64,000 bases of DNA, taken from the NCBI RefSeq assembly GCF_007860075.1, contig NZ_SJPP01000001.1, forward strand, positions 868,001 through 932,000, written 5' to 3'. A program made the position numbers and the translations under genes. How positions within the stretch are numbered: the stretch's first letter is position 1; the number at the start of each line of letters is the position of its first letter. This stretch comes from Symmachiella macrocystis. GTDB lineage: Bacteria; Planctomycetota; Planctomycetia; Planctomycetales; Planctomycetaceae. The notes under the pieces were generated by a model. The model saw only the letters and a program-made list of their open reading frames with translations, was not told where the DNA came from and ran no database searches. This document shows positions 59,143 to 63,470 of the stretch, piece by piece.

Positions 59143-60348
59143 ATGCAAAAAATCCTCCCCCTCATTGTCCTCACCCTCATTGTCCTCACCCTCCTCGTAA
59201 TACCCTTTACAACCTCCGCGGACGAAATCCAATTCACCCTCCGCGAACCGTACGGCATTATGCGGCATGGGATTCCGGTGGGGGAGCTGGTGACTTTTCC
59301 CGTAGCGGTGCCGGAGGGAACTCCGTTTCGACTCGTGCGTGATGGCAAGCCGGTGCGGGCGCAGTTTCGTAATGCGACGCCGGGGCAGGAGTCCGACAAA
59401 TGGTGGTTGGATTTTGCTGGGGTGTTGGATCCTTTCGAAACGGCAGCGTTTACGATTCAGTACGGTCCCGAGACTCAACCGGGGCCGGAGCGTGAACGGG
59501 GGCATGTGCTGAGCGAAAATGAGAATGTGTATTCAATTGCCAATGCACCCTACATTGAATGGAAAGTTCCTCGCGACCTGAGCGGGTTGCTGGCATCGGT
59601 TAGTTATCCGCCGCTGGAACACCTGCAACCGGCCGAGGGGTTGTTGCTGCGCGATGCGCAAGGGAATCAACATCGTTTGGGAGGCGCGGGAACCAAGTCG
59701 CGTGTTCTGCGGCAGGGGCCGATGGCCGTGGGATTGCGGTTTGAAAAAACAGAAACCGCGCCGGAATTGGCGGGGGTGAGTTGGACCGTCGATCTGATCT
59801 TCCCCGCACGCGTCAGTTGGATGGAGGTCGACGTGCGAGTCGACGATCCTCAACAGCAAGTCGCTGCGTTGGGATGGCAGTTGCATCTGAATCTCGATCC
59901 GCCAACCGCTAAGGAGCCGACATTGGTTGATTTCGGAGCGTCGCGCACTGTGTATGGATCACTGCGGCCGGAATGGCAAATGGAACTGCGGGCACGGCCG
60001 TCGCTGGAGATTCCGTGGCAGGTGTGGCGCGGCAAGGCGGGCGAGTTGCGATTGATGGAAGCCGCCCCGTTGAAATCAGCTGCGCTCGCTGAAGGATGGG
60101 CCCACGTGATGGACCGCCGTCGTTGTTTGGCATTGGCCATTAGCGAGTTTTCGAAACAGGGTGACGAACAACTCACCGTCGATGCGGACGGCACGCTCTC
60201 CGCTTGGCGAACATTTACCGCTGAGGGGGGTCAAGAAAAAACGATGCGGAGTTGGTTTCACTTCGTCACCTTCCCCCACCAGTTGGGCGCAGCGACCAGT
60301 CCGCAATCGATGCAAAACCCGCCGGTGGTGCGTTGGGGCCAACCGTAG
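59143..60348 (+). CDS. Secreted protein of unknown function
   Basis: This is a 401-residue protein, started at MQKILPLIVLTLIVLTLLVI, a signal peptide whose DNA contains a short tandem repeat (CTCATTGTCCTCACC). The mature part is all-beta with EIQFTLREPYGIMRHGIPVG and YGPETQPGPERERG, then VDVRVDDPQQQVAALGWQLH. The fold resembles carbohydrate-binding or glycoside hydrolase-associated sandwiches (for example the N-terminal parts of RIFT-type lyases), but no catalytic residues are recognised. Confidence 0.6.
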   Translation: MQKILPLIVLTLIVLTLLVIPFTTSADEIQFTLREPYGIMRHGIPVGELVTFPVAVPEGTPFRLVRDGKPVRAQFRNATPGQESDKWWLDFAGVLDPFETAAFTIQYGPETQPGPERERGHVLSENENVYSIANAPYIEWKVPRDLSGLLASVSYPPLEHLQPAEGLLLRDAQGNQHRLGGAGTKSRVLRQGPMAVGLRFEKTETAPELAGVSWTVDLIFPARVSWMEVDVRVDDPQQQVAALGWQLHLNLDPPTAKEPTLVDFGASRTVYGSLRPEWQMELRARPSLEIPWQVWRGKAGELRLMEAAPLKSAALAEGWAHVMDRRRCLALAISEFSKQGDEQLTVDADGTLSAWRTFTAEGGQEKTMRSWFHFVTFPHQLGAATSPQSMQNPPVVRWGQP

Positions 60349-60357
60349 CGCCACCAA

Positions 60358-60433
60358 TTCCCCCCCGGCAAAGCCGGAGGCTGGGATTAAAACGCCGCAA
60401 TGATTCCATCAGCCCCCGGCTCCGCCGGGGGGG
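60358..60433. repeat. Paired inverted hairpins (BIME-like)
   Basis: Two palindromes, CCCCCCGGCAAAGCCGGAGG and its inverse ending CCGGCTCCGCCGGGGGGG, face each other over ~35 bp. They resemble REP pairs and lie just before the tRNA array. Confidence 0.6.
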
Positions 60434-60495
60434 CGAGCTACAATCGATTTCCCACGCGAACCATTTTGCGTCGACCGCATCTCTATGTGGTAGAG

Positions 60496-60571
60496 GGCCG
60501 AGTACGCAAATGGGAAAAGCGGCCAGGTCGAGAGCCTGGTGAAGTTGTGGGTTCGACTCCCACCTTGGTCA
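60496..60571 (+). tRNA. tRNA-like RNA, anticodon position GAG, C33
   Basis: Acceptor GGCCGAG pairs with CTTGGTC (two G-T pairs), with A73 and CC following. D arm is CGC...GCG with a loop containing GGG. The anticodon stem CCAGG/CCTGG holds loop TCGAGAG, so the anticodon would be GAG (Leu), but position 33 is C instead of the usual U, and the variable loop is 7 nt rather than a long arm expected of tRNA-Leu. T arm GTGGG-TTCGACT-CCCAC is canonical. A divergent or non-decoding tRNA is likely. Confidence 0.65.
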
Positions 60572-60582
60572 CCTTAAAGAAT

Positions 60583-60673
60583 GGAAGGTAGCCGGATACG
60601 GTTGGCCGGGCCGGTTTGCTAAACCGGTTTCCTGAATATCAAAGGAATGCGAGTTCGAATCTCGCACCTTCCG
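60583..60673 (+). tRNA. tRNA-Ser(GCU)
   Basis: Acceptor GGAAGGT/ACCTTCC with G73, as in tRNA-Ser. D stem CCGG/CCGG, anticodon arm CCGGT-TTGCTAA-ACCGG giving anticodon GCT (reads AGC/AGU). A long variable arm (TTCCT/AGGAA) fits a class II tRNA. T arm GCGAG-TTCGAAT-CTCGC. CCA is not encoded. The D arm is unusual for a host tRNA-Ser. Confidence 0.85.
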
Positions 60674-60738
60674 CTCATCACTGGGTGGCTGGCGGACGGA
60701 CGAAGTCCGCCCCCGGGCTGGCATCCTCAACACCTACA

Positions 60739-60811
60739 GTCCTCGGAGTGTGTTGGATTCGCACGCGACTCTGCGAAGGTCGAAGACCAGGTTCGATTCC
60801 TGGCGGGGGCA
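60739..60811 (+). tRNA. tRNA-Arg(GCG)
   Basis: Acceptor GTCCTCG/CGGGGGC pairs over 7 bp with G-T pairs and A73. D stem GTG/CAC with GG in the loop. Anticodon arm CGACT-CTGCGAA-GGTCG gives anticodon GCG (reads CGC). T arm CCAGG-TTCGATT-CCTGG. Bacteria normally read CGC with the ACG (inosine) tRNA, so this isoacceptor is unusual. A GGCGGAC/GTCCGCC hairpin lies at about 60691-60711, upstream. Confidence 0.8.
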
Positions 60812-60839
60812 CTGATTACTTTGTTTCCAAACCCTCTGA

Positions 60840-60904
60840 TGCTTGGCGATCAAGGTAGTTTAAACGCGTGTTTGACAAGCACAACCGGGTTCGGAAACGT
60901 CGAA
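60840..60904 (+). pseudogene. Degenerate tRNA-like element, anticodon position GAC
   Basis: A stretch with GATCAAGGTAGTTTAAACGC followed by GTGTTTGACAAGCAC resembles a D arm and an anticodon arm with loop TTGACAA (GAC, Val). GGGTTCGGAA resembles a T loop but no proper T stem forms, and the acceptor CTTGGCG/CGTCGAAG has a bulge. It is most likely a decayed member of the array. Confidence 0.3.
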
Positions 60905-61004
60905 GGGGTGGCCCCGAAAGATTCATTCGGGGCGGCGTAGCCGCTGGAGGCGCTTCCACGACATTGACAGCATTAGGATAAACTCCTGCCGTGTTTTTTA
61001 AAAA

Positions 61005-61113
61005 GGGAGGGCGAGGCTCCCGCCGAGCCGCGCTGAACTATAACGCTTACCAAACCCATTGGGTCGCTCCACGCTGAGTGGAAAAAGCGGCTCAGCAGGA
61101 GCTTCGCCCTCCC
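61005..61113. repeat. 109-bp inverted-repeat element, second family
   Basis: GGGAGGGCGAGGCTCCCGCC at the left end and GGAGCTTCGCCCTCCC at the right end are 27-bp imperfect inverted repeats that also include CGAGCCGC and GCGGCTCAG. The core has no gene. It is inserted between the tRNA-like elements and tRNA-Cys, so the array has been invaded. Confidence 0.85.
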
Positions 61114-61142
61114 GCGACGCTGAAAGACAATTAATACAAAAA

Positions 61143-61215
61143 GACACCGAGGCTCGATGGCCGGGCGACTGTCTGCAACACAGTTTTCTAGTGAGTTCGA
61201 TTCTCACCGGTGTCT
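61143..61215 (+). tRNA. tRNA-Cys(GCA)
   Basis: Acceptor GACACCG/CGGTGTC is a perfect 7-bp stem with U73, the cysteine identity base. D stem GCTC/GGGC, anticodon arm ACTGT-CTGCAAC-ACAGT giving GCA, T arm GTGAG-TTCGATT-CTCAC. CCA is not encoded. It ends 3-4 nt before the first Y-like RNA. Confidence 0.9.
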
Positions 61216-61218
61216 CTC

Positions 61219-61287
61219 ACCGCTCGACTGCACGTTCGGAATACATCTTTGTGAAAGACCATCTGAACAAATCCTTCGTCGAGCGGT
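61219..61287 (+). ncRNA. Y RNA-like element 1 (minimal form)
   Basis: A 10-bp perfect helix, ACCGCTCGAC with GTCGAGCGGT, closes a 69-nt element. The strand ends carry the array motifs: CGACTG and GGAATACAT on the 5' side, ATCTGAACAAATC and CTTCGTCG on the 3' side. The inside has only a tiny hairpin (CTTTGTGAAAG) where elements 2 and 3 hold a tRNA-like module. It is probably the Ro60-binding part alone. No T-run follows. Confidence 0.7.
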
Positions 61288-61295
61288 ACCTACAA

Positions 61296-61446
61296 TTTGA
61301 CCGACTGCCGAATCGGAGTACATGGCACATAACCCGCGAGTTGTAGGTTCGAGTCCTACCACCTCTACTTTGTTTTCTACGGAGGTGTAGCTCAATGGCA
61401 GAGCAGCGTACGTCTCTGGCTCAACACTTCGTCGGTCAAGTTTTTT
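61296..61446 (+). ncRNA. Y RNA-like element 2 with permuted tRNA module
   Basis: TTTGACCGAC pairs with GTCGGTCAAG (10 bp, one G-T) and is followed by six T residues, forming a terminator-like end. Inside, in order: GGAGTACAT, a T arm GTAGG-TTCGAGT-CCTAC (61343-61359), 3' acceptor strand CACCTCT plus A (61360-61367), a 13-nt linker, 5' acceptor strand GGAGGTG (61381-61387), D arm GCTC-AATGGCA-GAGC, then CTCTGGCTCAACACTTCGTCG. The acceptor strands pair 7 of 7 (one G-T). This is a circularly permuted tRNA module opened at the anticodon end, as in the YrlA class. Confidence 0.8.
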
Positions 61447-61454
61447 ATACATAG

Positions 61455-61605
61455 ACGTTTCGACTGACCGATTGGAATACATCGGATCATGAAATTGTGG
61501 GTTCGAATCCCACCGGCACAACCGTGTGCCGTGGCGTAATTAGATAACGCACATGAGTCCCCGCAAGGGGATGCCTTCTGATCAACAACTTCGTCGGAAC
61601 GTTTT
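61455..61605 (+). ncRNA. Y RNA-like element 3 with permuted tRNA module
   Basis: ACGTTTCGAC pairs with GTCGGAACGT (10 bp, one G-T), followed by a short T-run. The inner module is very tRNA-like. T arm is GTGGG-TTCGAAT-CCCAC and 3' acceptor CGGCACA with A. Only three bases (CCG) link it to 5' acceptor TGTGCCG (perfect 7 bp). D arm is GCG/CGC. The anticodon-side stem is CATGA (61552-61556) with TCATG (61487-61491), 5 bp. An extra CCCC-GCAA-GGGG tetraloop hairpin sits in the anticodon-side loop. Conserved ends CGACTG/GGAATACAT and TTCTGATCAACAACTTCGTCG flank it. Confidence 0.82.
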
Positions 61606-61606
61606 C

Positions 61607-61721
61607 CATTCGACTGCGTGAGTGGAGTCCATGGCTTAGCTGGTTCGATTCCTGCCCGGCCCCCTTTTGATTTTTGGCACGGGGCCGGAGCTCTGCCCAA
61701 TACTTCGTCGAATGCTTTTTT
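61607..61721 (+). ncRNA. Y RNA-like element 4, module lacking the D arm
   Basis: CATTCGAC pairs with GTCGAATG (8 bp), followed by C and six T residues (61716-61721), a terminator-like end. Inside are CGACTG, GGAGTCCAT, an imperfect T arm GCTGG-TTCGATT-CCTGC, 3' acceptor strand CCGGCCC, a linker, and 5' acceptor strand GGGCCGG (7-8 bp). Then AGCTCTGCCCAATACTTCGTCG follows directly, so no D arm exists. It ends 68 nt before the Ro60 start. Confidence 0.7.
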
Positions 61722-61788
61722 GTCCGCATCCCGCCCAATGGCGCTCGTCATTTCGCAGGGGATGTTATTTTTTGTCACGGAGGTCATG

Positions 61789-63426
61789 ATGGCCAACAAC
61801 ACACTCTTCTCAAGCTTGAAAAGCAAATTCCCACGCGCGTTCGCAAAGAACGAAGCTGGTGGTCGCGCCTATCAGCTGACGCCGAAACAGGCGTTGGCGC
61901 AAATGGCAGCGACCGGTACGTTCGGCGGCGCGTACTACGCGAGCGCGCAAAATCAACTGGATACGGTGCGTACGTTGATCGACAAAATCGACGACAACCA
62001 GTATCTGGCGAGGTTGGCTGTTTATGCGCGCGAGCGAGCCTATATGAAAGACATGCCGGCGGCGCTGCTGCTCGCGTTGTCGAATCGTGATACGGAGTTG
62101 ATGCACCGCGTTTTCAATCGCGTTGTCGATAACGGACGCGTACTGCGGACGATGTTTCAGATGATTCGTTCGGGACAGTTCGGCCGCAACAGCTTGTCGT
62201 CTTCATTGCAACGCGCATTTGCGCGATGGTTGAACGAGGCTTCCGTAGGTAAGTTGTTGTCGGCTTCGATCGGTCACGATCCCAGCTTGCGCGACGTATT
62301 GCGGTTGGCGCGACCGAAGCCGCTGGACAATCAGCGGCGCGCGTTGTTCGGGTGGTTGACGGACAAGGAGCTCGACAAGTGGGCTCCGGCCTCCGCAGAC
62401 GACCTGCCGGAGACGGTGCGGAAGTTAATCGCCTATCGCGCAGCAGATTCGGTTGAGGCGCAGATTGAACTGCTCGACGGAGACGGTCTGTCGGTGCGGT
62501 GGGATCTGTTGGCTGATGCGGCTCTCGGTCCAGCCGTCTGGAAGGCAATTGCCCGTCAGATGGGACCGCAGGCGCTGCGAATGAACCTCAACACGTTGTT
62601 GCGTCATCACGTTTTCGGCAAAGGTTGGCGGAACAACGAGATGGTGGATTACGTAGCCAATCGCTTGAGCGACGTGGACGAAATTCGCCGCTCGCGTCAG
62701 TTTCCGTACCAATACTTGGCGGCCTACTTGAACGCCTCGGAAGAGGTTCCGCACAAGATCAAAGCAGCACTACACCAAGCAGCAGAGATCTCTTGCGGAA
62801 ACGTGCCGGAATTGCCGGGACCGGTTGTGATCGGATTGGATACGTCCGGTTCGATGTCGATGGCCGTTACGGGACGCCGCGGACGGGGTGCGATAAGTAC
62901 GATGCGCTGTGTCGATGTGGCGGCCTTGTTCGCCGCAGCGATGCTGCGTCGCAACCCGGACAGTGTGTTGATTCCATTTGACACGCAGGCGTATAGCGCA
63001 CAGTTCGATCCGGCCGACTCGATTTTGAGTCTGTCGAAGCGGCTGGCGAAGTTTGGTGGGGGCGGAACGGATTGTTCGATTCCGCTCTATTTTGCAAACA
63101 CCATGTATCGCGACCGGCGTTTTGCTGGAGCGATTCTGGTAAGCGACAATGAGAGTTGGGTGGGCACGGGCCGATATGGTTCGACGGGTGTGATCACCGA
63201 GTGGCAGGCGTTCATCAAGAACCAAATGCGACTGGGGGGTCACGACATCGCCACACCAAAATTGGTGTGTGTCGACATTCAACCTTATGGAACGACGCAG
63301 GCTCCGGAACGGGGCGACATTTTGAACATCGGTGGTTTTTCGGACGCCGTGTTCAACGTTGTTGCCGCGTTTATCAGCGACGATACCCAACGGTTCGTTG
63401 CCGAAGTGGAGTCGATCGTGTTGTGA
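61789..63426 (+). CDS. Ro60/TROVE domain protein
   Basis: The 545-residue protein starts at ATG 61789 (GGAGG 5 nt upstream); upstream in-frame codons belong to the Y RNA region. The TROVE ring of HEAT-like repeats covers about 10-330 ([40 protein letters not shown]). A von Willebrand A domain follows with the metal-site residues D351-x-S353-x-S355 (DTSGSMS), T427 (GGGGTD) and D453 (VSDNES). Ro60 binds Y RNAs on its outer face and misfolded RNA 3' ends in its ring; bacterial forms work with PNPase or RtcB. The adjacent Y RNA array supports this. No rtcB or pnp gene is in the window. Confidence 0.95.
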
Positions 63427-63431
63427 TTCCG

Positions 63432-63470
63432 CACCCCCGGTTCTAGCAATAGGACCGGGGGTGTTTTTTT
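63432..63470. terminator. Rho-independent terminator after the Ro60 gene
   Basis: CACCCCCGGTTCT pairs with AGGACCGGGGGTG around a 6-nt loop, followed by seven T residues. It begins 6 nt after the stop codon. Confidence 0.93.

Follow-up and report, generated by a model that had tools for sequence, protein, structure and literature searches.

Candidate tandem Y RNAs upstream of Ro60 in Symmachiella macrocystis, with heads resembling RNAs of the translation machinery

In Deinococcus and Salmonella the stem of Y RNAs binds the Ro60 protein Rsr, the Y RNA can tether PNPase, and the head of the YrlA type is modified by DusA and TruB, as described in PMC8394870. YrlA (Rfam RF02553; Salmonella, Deinococcus) is recognised by its place next to Ro60, by a closing stem and by a permuted domain made of T-arm, acceptor and D-arm; the Salmonella operon rsr-yrlBA-rtcBA associates Ro60 with more than one Y RNA (PMC7790460). 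Long accessory tRNA arrays have been described in archaea, where 20 of 29 clusters hold a TROVE gene (PMC6333295), in many Planctomycetes as degenerate clusters (PMC4807772), and in Anabaena, where an accessory tRNA operon and rtcB are under one repressor and are induced by translation inhibitors (PMC10272220). Already known, therefore, are tRNA heads on Y RNAs, a two-Y-RNA locus and tRNA clusters with TROVE genes, and the role of the tRNA-like heads of bacterial Y RNAs is a standing question in the field. We consider here a stretch of 64,000 nucleotides from Symmachiella macrocystis (contig NZ_SJPP01000001.1, positions 868,001 to 932,000; the window), at the end of which four Y RNA-like elements in tandem, Y1 to Y4, precede a gene for Ro60.

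We think it probable that this is a tandem set of YrlA-type Y RNAs that share a handle for Ro60 and present heads mimicking the RNAs of translation. The two parts of this reading do not stand equally: comparison with relatives leaves little doubt that Y1 to Y4 form a Ro60-linked Y RNA set, and we lean, with more reserve, towards the view that their heads act as mimics of translation RNAs. What comparative analysis brings out is a covarying common handle, a permuted tRNA fold, a 23S rRNA segment in relatives, and a link both to Ro60 and to a tRNA array whose gene order is shared. The elements and their gene are the following, all on the forward strand.

61219..61287, +: Y1, a 69-nt bare-hairpin Y element, closing helix 10 bp (covariance model R1, 23.3 bits; fold z -3.5)
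61294..61442, +: Y2, a Y element with a circularly permuted tRNA, closing helix 12 bp (Rfam YrlA, R1, 28-sequence alignment)
61453..61604, +: Y3, a Y element with a permuted tRNA and an extra GCAA hairpin, closing helix 12 bp (Rfam YrlA, R1, fold z -3.1)
61607..61714, +: Y4, a Y element with a T-arm-like hairpin and an acceptor-like stem, closing helix 8 bp (R1, 35.6 bits; same type in relatives)
61786..63426, +: Ro60/Rsr gene (TROVE and vWA domains), start ATG at 61786 or 61789 (Pfam; PDB 2nvo; sole match in the genome)

A sequence-only reading of the window had proposed, within 61219-63470, four such elements in tandem 5' of Ro60 with differing modules. All four are present, at 61219-61714; the interval as drawn also takes in the Ro60 gene, and the island to which it belongs (60496-63426) begins further 5' with genes for tRNA-Leu, tRNA-Ser, tRNA-Arg and tRNA-Cys (60496-61216). 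The common motifs listed in that reading were recovered as well, CGACTG leading in and CTTCGTCG leading out, with GGA(A/G)T(A/C)CAT and TCTG..CAA inside, Y2 deviating at the latter by three intervening bases in place of two. Spacing is tight: 2 nt separate the end of tRNA-Cys from the start of Y1, the gaps between successive elements are 6, 10 and 2 nt (helix ends as placed by the element finder), and 71-74 nt lie between the end of Y4 and the Ro60 start codon, an adjacency shared with YrlA. All four elements thus stand at most 570 nt 5' of the start codon and in the same orientation as ro60. The closing helix of Y4 is followed directly by a C, then six T.

In each of Y1 to Y4 the 5' and 3' ends pair as a closing stem of 8-12 bp, as they do in YrlA. 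Covariation of this stem in relatives, the absence of which had been named beforehand as a ground for refutation, is strong both in the 94 elements considered now and in the alignment of Y2-type sequences discussed below. Elements from 32 related loci were picked by their inner motifs and a unique TTCGT, the outer helix playing no part in the choice; 94 of 137 5' motifs had one TTCGT partner and were used, while 10 with several and 33 without an exact TTCGT were left out. All five outer positions were paired in 77 of the 94 elements and four of the five in 13. Position by position, pairing was found in 93, 92, 93, 86 and 82 of 94 elements, against shuffled means of 75, 89, 65, 39 and 51, so that four positions exceeded all 200 shuffles and the second fell inside the shuffled range; these elements are kin by descent, and the counts therefore overstate the independent evidence. 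The closing helices are not due to chance.

Within this common frame the heads differ, as the sequence-only reading had it when it spoke of graded modules without naming them; the modules prove to be two permuted tRNAs, one T-arm/acceptor piece and one bare hairpin. Y2 comprises a T-arm (~61343-61359), an acceptor whose 3' strand (61360-61366) precedes its 5' strand (61381-61387), and a D-arm (~61387-61405). Y3 repeats this plan (T-arm 61497-61513, acceptor 61514-61520/61525-61531, D-arm 61532-61551), adds the GCAA hairpin at ~61557-61572, and has a GTGG(C/T) stretch that groups it with five elements from relatives. Y4 has the T-arm-like hairpin (61639-61655) and the acceptor-like stem (61656-61663/61681-61688) with no D-arm, and Y1 has no tRNA part at all; short elements stand first, as Y1 does, in several related arrays. 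The permuted order of T-arm, acceptor and D-arm that is the hallmark of YrlA is consequently found in Y2 and Y3, in Y4 for T-arm and acceptor only, and not in Y1. Twenty-eight aligned Y2-type sequences share a closing helix, a second helix, the T-arm, an acceptor closed in the reverse sense and the D-arm, with 804 of 819 pair cells canonical and at least two canonical pair types in 21 of 30 pairs, counts that lean to this structure because RNAalifold derived it from the same alignment. As judged from this alignment, the Y2-type head is a tRNA in circular permutation whose opening lies at the anticodon, the handle replacing the anticodon loop. The tRNA heads of Y2-Y4 could not be assigned to a particular amino acid, the best matches among 60 tRNA genes of the window genome differing from one half to the other.

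The Rfam YrlA model aligns to Y2 (41.5 bits, E 1.4e-7) and Y3 (33.0 bits, E 3.9e-5), reaches no significance on Y4 (19.9 bits, E 0.23) and finds no match in Y1. The stem departs from it, CGACTG..CTTCGTCG standing against the Rfam consensus CgaAUGC..UuGucG. A covariance model of our own, R1, was trained on 17 sequences of the Y2 type, taken from 12 genomes and including the Y2 of the window, and the 129.6 bits that it gives to Y2 are accordingly a matter of construction; Y3 (66.1 bits, E 3.5e-15), Y4 (35.6 bits, E 1.9e-7) and Y1 (23.3 bits, E 2.6e-4) were foreign to it. On the strength of a model untrained on them, Y3, Y4 and, weakly, Y1 are members of one element family with Y2. Run across the whole window genome at E<=0.001 with stricter filters, R1 returned Y2-Y4 only.

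That the gene downstream of Y1-Y4 is Ro60 is clear from its domains, TROVE (PF05731, 32.5 bits for a cut-off of 23) and vWA_Ro60 (PF25045, 47.6 bits for a cut-off of 27.7), and its closest solved structure by sequence is that of Rsr (PDB 2nvo, E 1.6e-18). It is the only Ro60 match in the window genome (C1:929789), and the RtcB matches lie far from it (C1:1194823 and C1:3828325), so that rtcB is not adjacent: the elements stand upstream of ro60 beside tRNA genes, and not in an rtc operon as in Salmonella. An origin in a phage or plasmid was disfavoured: the best full-length phage match (Myxococcus phage Mx1) has 38.9% identity, one 1.7-kb phage record has 43% over 54% of the protein, and the best plasmid match has 43.6%. 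Ro60 relatives are present in 337 phage records; the Mx1 stretch gave one partial R1 match only, at 24.7 bits.

The elements follow Ro60 through the order, Ro60 being matched in 53 of 170 genomes. At E<=1e-8, R1 matches 47 of these 53 genomes and 2 of the 117 without Ro60 (Fisher p 1e-32, related genomes being treated as independent; the 49 matched genomes and the 6 Ro60 genomes missed were tallied by hand). One exception, G014 (G and L numbers label genomes and loci of relatives, the window genome being G000), has a divergent Ro60 of 22.8% identity within ~1 kb of its R1 matches; the other, G162, has no Ro60 match, and at its locus L140 Y elements come after an array of 30 tRNAs. There the final 5' motif is without a 3' partner, as if Ro60 had been removed by deletion. 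In a sample of the phylum, 52 of 392 genomes matched R1 at E<=1e-6, and among eight of them lying outside the family for which the flanking stretch was retrieved, Ro60 was found in seven and not in G421. Thirteen Ro60 loci on named contigs (Pirellulaceae or Planctomycetes by title) yielded R1 elements in nine (L111, L112, L114-L118, L121, L122); the contigs of L113, L119, L120 and L123 start at or inside Ro60 and hence contain no upstream sequence.

Loci were examined for 49 of the 53 Ro60 genomes, G021, G067, G148 and G159 being left out. In the 32 where Ro60 has at least 60% identity and its start is present, an element finder that uses the helix and looks 1.8 kb upstream detected 109 elements, with at least one in 31 loci, at least two in 24, at least four in 18 and a maximum of seven. 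The idea that an array of four units is unusual must accordingly be abandoned: several Y RNAs per Ro60 are, as far as these predicted elements go, usual in the group, and it is the variety of heads rather than their number that is out of the ordinary. In five loci (L065, L070, L079, L080, L081) elements start more than 1 kb upstream of ro60. A second Ro60 clade (L092-L105, 14 loci, 38-42% identity) has R1 matches downstream of Ro60 in all 14; four of the five of its loci scanned hold one element each above the YrlA gathering score (69.3-73.4 bits). The sequence was inspected for G091, where ro60 is followed by the Y array and then by rtcB, reminiscent of the Salmonella operon, and for G146, which is similar by eye. 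The most divergent Ro60 loci (G003, G004, G014) have their R1 matches upstream.

The variety of heads extends, in relatives, to what appears to be a segment of 23S rRNA. Among the 33 loci whose Ro60 reaches 60% identity (the truncated L090 included), 16 have CTAAGGTAGC within a 23S-matching stretch of an upstream element, and the L072 element has it with one change. The match spans ~1909-1937 of the E. coli 23S (domain IV, H69-H71); comparisons were made against the 23S of E. coli and of G033. Over the 25 positions around the site, 10 of which are the selection motif, 22 elements share 19-25 with the G033 23S, and two are identical to it throughout, one of them from G033 itself. An H71-like hairpin is fully pairable in 17 of 18 elements through seven stem variants, the best of several offsets being taken without a shuffle control. 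The same head accompanies the Y arrays of G285, G514 (both of the same class, other families) and G379 (same phylum), where 14 kb around the arrays contain 16, 19 and 24 tRNAs respectively; an Rfam scan of L177 7400-8300, part of the G285 array, gave chance-level matches only and no YrlA. The window genome lacks it, and its congeners G151 and G152 carry it, which suggests that the 23S head was probably lost there between Y1 and Y2. By eye this head looks circularly permuted, with its opening in the H69 loop; the tests do not establish it, for the 3' segments of these heads place at 23S 1894-1914 in 4 of 18 cases, none above the best of 30 shuffles, and of 22 elements 6 show H69-like pairing at p<0.1, the 3' segment cut having missed the place in several. 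Nor would a pattern match alone serve as a marker, since ACGGNCCTAAGGTAGC occurs in 126 of 392 genomes of the phylum, many of these presumably real 23S rRNA; only matches beside R1 matches were taken. A 27-base stretch from one such head had no exact counterpart in viral contigs. The idea that rRNA is masked in the genome copies was weakened, the first probe being unfit for the sarcin-ricin loop of the family; a second, conserved 23S stretch was not found at one mismatch in 8 of 10 genome copies probed. The sarcin-ricin loop region of the 23S from G033 and G007 (L180, L181) reads AGTACGAGAGGATTT.

A further type of head recalls the anticodon arm. Short elements were sorted into classes by motif and length and compared for a hairpin of 4 bp closing a 7-nt loop whose second position is T. 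Ten of 12 class-B elements have it, where shuffles would give 0.3, and their middle triplets are of six kinds; it is present in 7 of 15 class-A elements (shuffles 0.36) and in 2 of the six others (shuffles 0.15). All of these are kin by descent, and the hairpin competes in part with a neighbouring one.

The tRNA genes that precede the elements in the window belong to a larger array, of which they seem to be what is left.

60496..60573, +: tRNA-Leu(GAG), tRNA-array remnant (ARAGORN; Rfam tRNA 45 bits)
60583..60674, +: tRNA-Ser(GCT), tRNA-array remnant (ARAGORN; Rfam tRNA 43.7 bits)
60739..60812, +: tRNA-Arg(GCG), tRNA-array remnant (ARAGORN; Rfam tRNA 40.4 bits)
61143..61216, +: tRNA-Cys(GCA), final tRNA-array gene (ARAGORN; Rfam tRNA 42.3 bits)

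In 24 of the 33 loci at 60% Ro60 identity or above, tRNA genes, up to 43 of them, lie within 7 kb upstream, in an order largely common to the loci; the figure is 2 of 17 for Ro60 loci of lower identity, where several contigs are short. The window genome keeps its set in three places, namely 20 genes at C1:4071933-4077519, 5 at C1:2474901-2475614 (the outlying loci, L128 and L129) and the 4 of the window. No isoacceptor occurs twice among them, and the common order is kept in 17 of 19, 4 of 4 and 3 of 3 neighbouring steps; for random subsets of 42 types, a list obtained from the L079 array without repeats plus the tRNA-His of relatives, the chance of zero overlap is 0.0006. The split set looks like the outcome of a duplication with reciprocal loss, and this suggests that the tRNA set as a whole would be worth keeping. 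Array genes score lower with the tRNA model (median 52.3 bits, n=27) than the other tRNAs of the genome (67.4 bits, n=48), those of the window having a median of 43. The tRNA array of G094 encloses a reading frame that, by eye, may encode an HNH endonuclease (L081, -3423 to -2761 counted from Ro60).

We may now try to understand how such a locus would work. As Y1 starts 2 nt after tRNA-Cys, Y1-Y4 would probably be cut from one precursor that starts in the tRNA array. The common handle, a closing helix with an internal loop, would be what Ro60 binds, while the heads, a hairpin in Y1, permuted tRNAs in Y2 and Y3, a T-arm/acceptor piece in Y4 and, probably, a 23S H69-H71 head in the ancestral set, would each be read by proteins that normally recognise the matching part of a tRNA or of the ribosome. 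Candidate readers are the enzymes modifying the T-loop and the D-loop, PNPase or another nuclease, anticodon nucleases and ribosome factors. One ring protein would thereby be tethered to several partners in the translation apparatus, or would shield them, in keeping with the earlier suggestion that one Ro60 may address several partners. With the companion tRNA array, the whole could make up a translational-stress kit combining spare tRNAs with RNA quality control, a role favoured by the rtcB link of the sister clade together with the Anabaena precedent (PMC10272220); we regard this role as possible, at somewhat less than even chances. Slightly more tentative still is its widest form, in which a Y RNA kit portraying the decoding machinery (whole tRNAs, T-arm/acceptor, anticodon arm, 23S H69-H71), inherited together with a near-complete second tRNA set, would constitute across Planctomycetota a ribonucleoprotein system against translational stress or ribotoxins, mimicking both rRNA and tRNA.

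A number of observations weigh against the reading of Y1-Y4 as Ro60-bound mimics of translation RNAs, besides the kinship of the elements in the helix counts. No window element attains the RF02553 gathering score of 69 bits, nor does any element of the eight related loci scanned (best 45.8). Folding of the window elements compared with shuffles gives a mixed picture (z -3.5, -0.6, -3.1 and -1.9 for Y1 to Y4); for Y2 the structure of minimum energy does not outdo shuffles and differs from the tRNA fold, which in this element rests on comparison and not on energy. The Ro60 protein misses the cut-off of the NCBIfam Rsr equivalog NF041674 (90.9 for 900 bits). Neither a sigma-70-type promoter nor a terminator-like site on the forward strand was found in 60340-61800. 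Training overlap lowers the R1 count, leaving 35 of 41 Ro60 genomes matched at E<=1e-8 once the 12 training genomes are removed. The best R1 matches of G075, G163 and G166 are not beside Ro60, and that of G072 is on another contig, its second match being beside Ro60. At the loose E<=0.001, R1 matches 83 of the 170 genomes, though many of the 34 with only weaker matches may reflect T-arms. As for the non-tRNA heads, Rfam scans of stretches with 23S-type elements recognised no rRNA in them, the window genome has no 23S head, and Y1 has no anticodon-arm-like loop.

Among other explanations the one that survives best would have the heads as decoys, baiting toxins that cut or modify tRNA or 23S rRNA while Ro60 protects or disposes of the complex, so that the locus would be a defence or anti-toxin module and not a tether. 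Anticodon nucleases and VapC/MazF-type RNases are candidate toxins acting on tRNA or 23S rRNA, and the anticodon-arm-like loops and the 23S H69-H71 segment of relatives speak for this explanation, as does the occurrence of Ro60 relatives in phage records. In Salmonella, YrlA has been proposed as a competitor of the anticodon nuclease (PMC7790460); the archaeal association of tRNA arrays with TROVE genes (PMC6333295) fits as well. Against this, YrlA itself is uncut in Salmonella (PMC7790460), no toxin or nuclease target is known here (of the reading frames flanking the window array, only Ro60 was domain-searched), the 7-nt loop is not always part of the minimum-energy fold, and Y1 has none; we hold the decoy explanation to be rather unlikely. 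More improbable is a cis-acting leader, in which Ro60 would bind the elements as part of the 5' leader of its own messenger, mainly for autoregulation. Their place shortly before the start codon, on the same strand as ro60, and the simplicity of a feedback by which Ro60 would bind its own leader speak for it, but the elements lie downstream of ro60 throughout the second clade, begin beyond 1 kb upstream in the five loci named above, and vary in their heads while keeping the handle. Finally, it is very improbable that the elements are relics, tRNA genes either permuted or in decay, left from a degenerate cluster that was acquired horizontally, with no role specific to Ro60. Degenerate clusters do exist in many Planctomycetes (PMC4807772), the tRNAs that the elements follow score low (window median 43 bits against 67.4 outside the array), and the permuted tRNA modules are obvious; against it stand closing helices that covary in 94 elements, non-tRNA heads (bare hairpin, 23S segment) on the same handle, a presence that follows Ro60, and a handle taking the place of the anticodon loop in the Y2 group.

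If the reading of a Ro60-bound set with mimicking heads is correct, Y RNA mimicry would extend from tRNA to ribosomal RNA. The planctomycete loci differ from YrlA as described in holding up to seven elements and non-tRNA heads, a 23S rRNA segment among them, and this natural series on one handle (tRNA, part-tRNA, anticodon-arm-like and 23S heads) provides a set of variants for asking which protein each head recruits. It also suggests a candidate partner for the 'degenerate' planctomycete tRNA clusters, read in PMC4807772 as possibly dispensable. The main text of that article has neither TROVE nor Ro60 (Y RNA was not searched for there or in PMC6333295), and the main text of PMC10272220, on Anabaena, has no TROVE, rsr or Y RNA; an rRNA-mimicking Y RNA, a series of heads on one handle, or a unit of Y array, tRNA array and Ro60 in Planctomycetota was not among the literature matches listed.

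There remain heads in the related arrays that fall into none of these types. Other rRNA was considered as their source and disfavoured: local alignment of 112 candidates to the 16S, 23S and 5S rRNAs of E. coli singled out none but 23S-type elements, 10 exceeding shuffles, all at 23S ~1908-1942. Five elements (L066 -124, L075 -365, L079 -560, L083 -353 and L089 -594 relative to Ro60) form one class, with a head matched to no known RNA, most having a GAAGCGGGAGCTTC-like hairpin and GGACCGGC. Three others (L079 -309, L081 -164 and L086 -240) contain a pyrimidine-rich strand, with CCTCC in two of the three, that by eye appears anti-Shine-Dalgarno-like.

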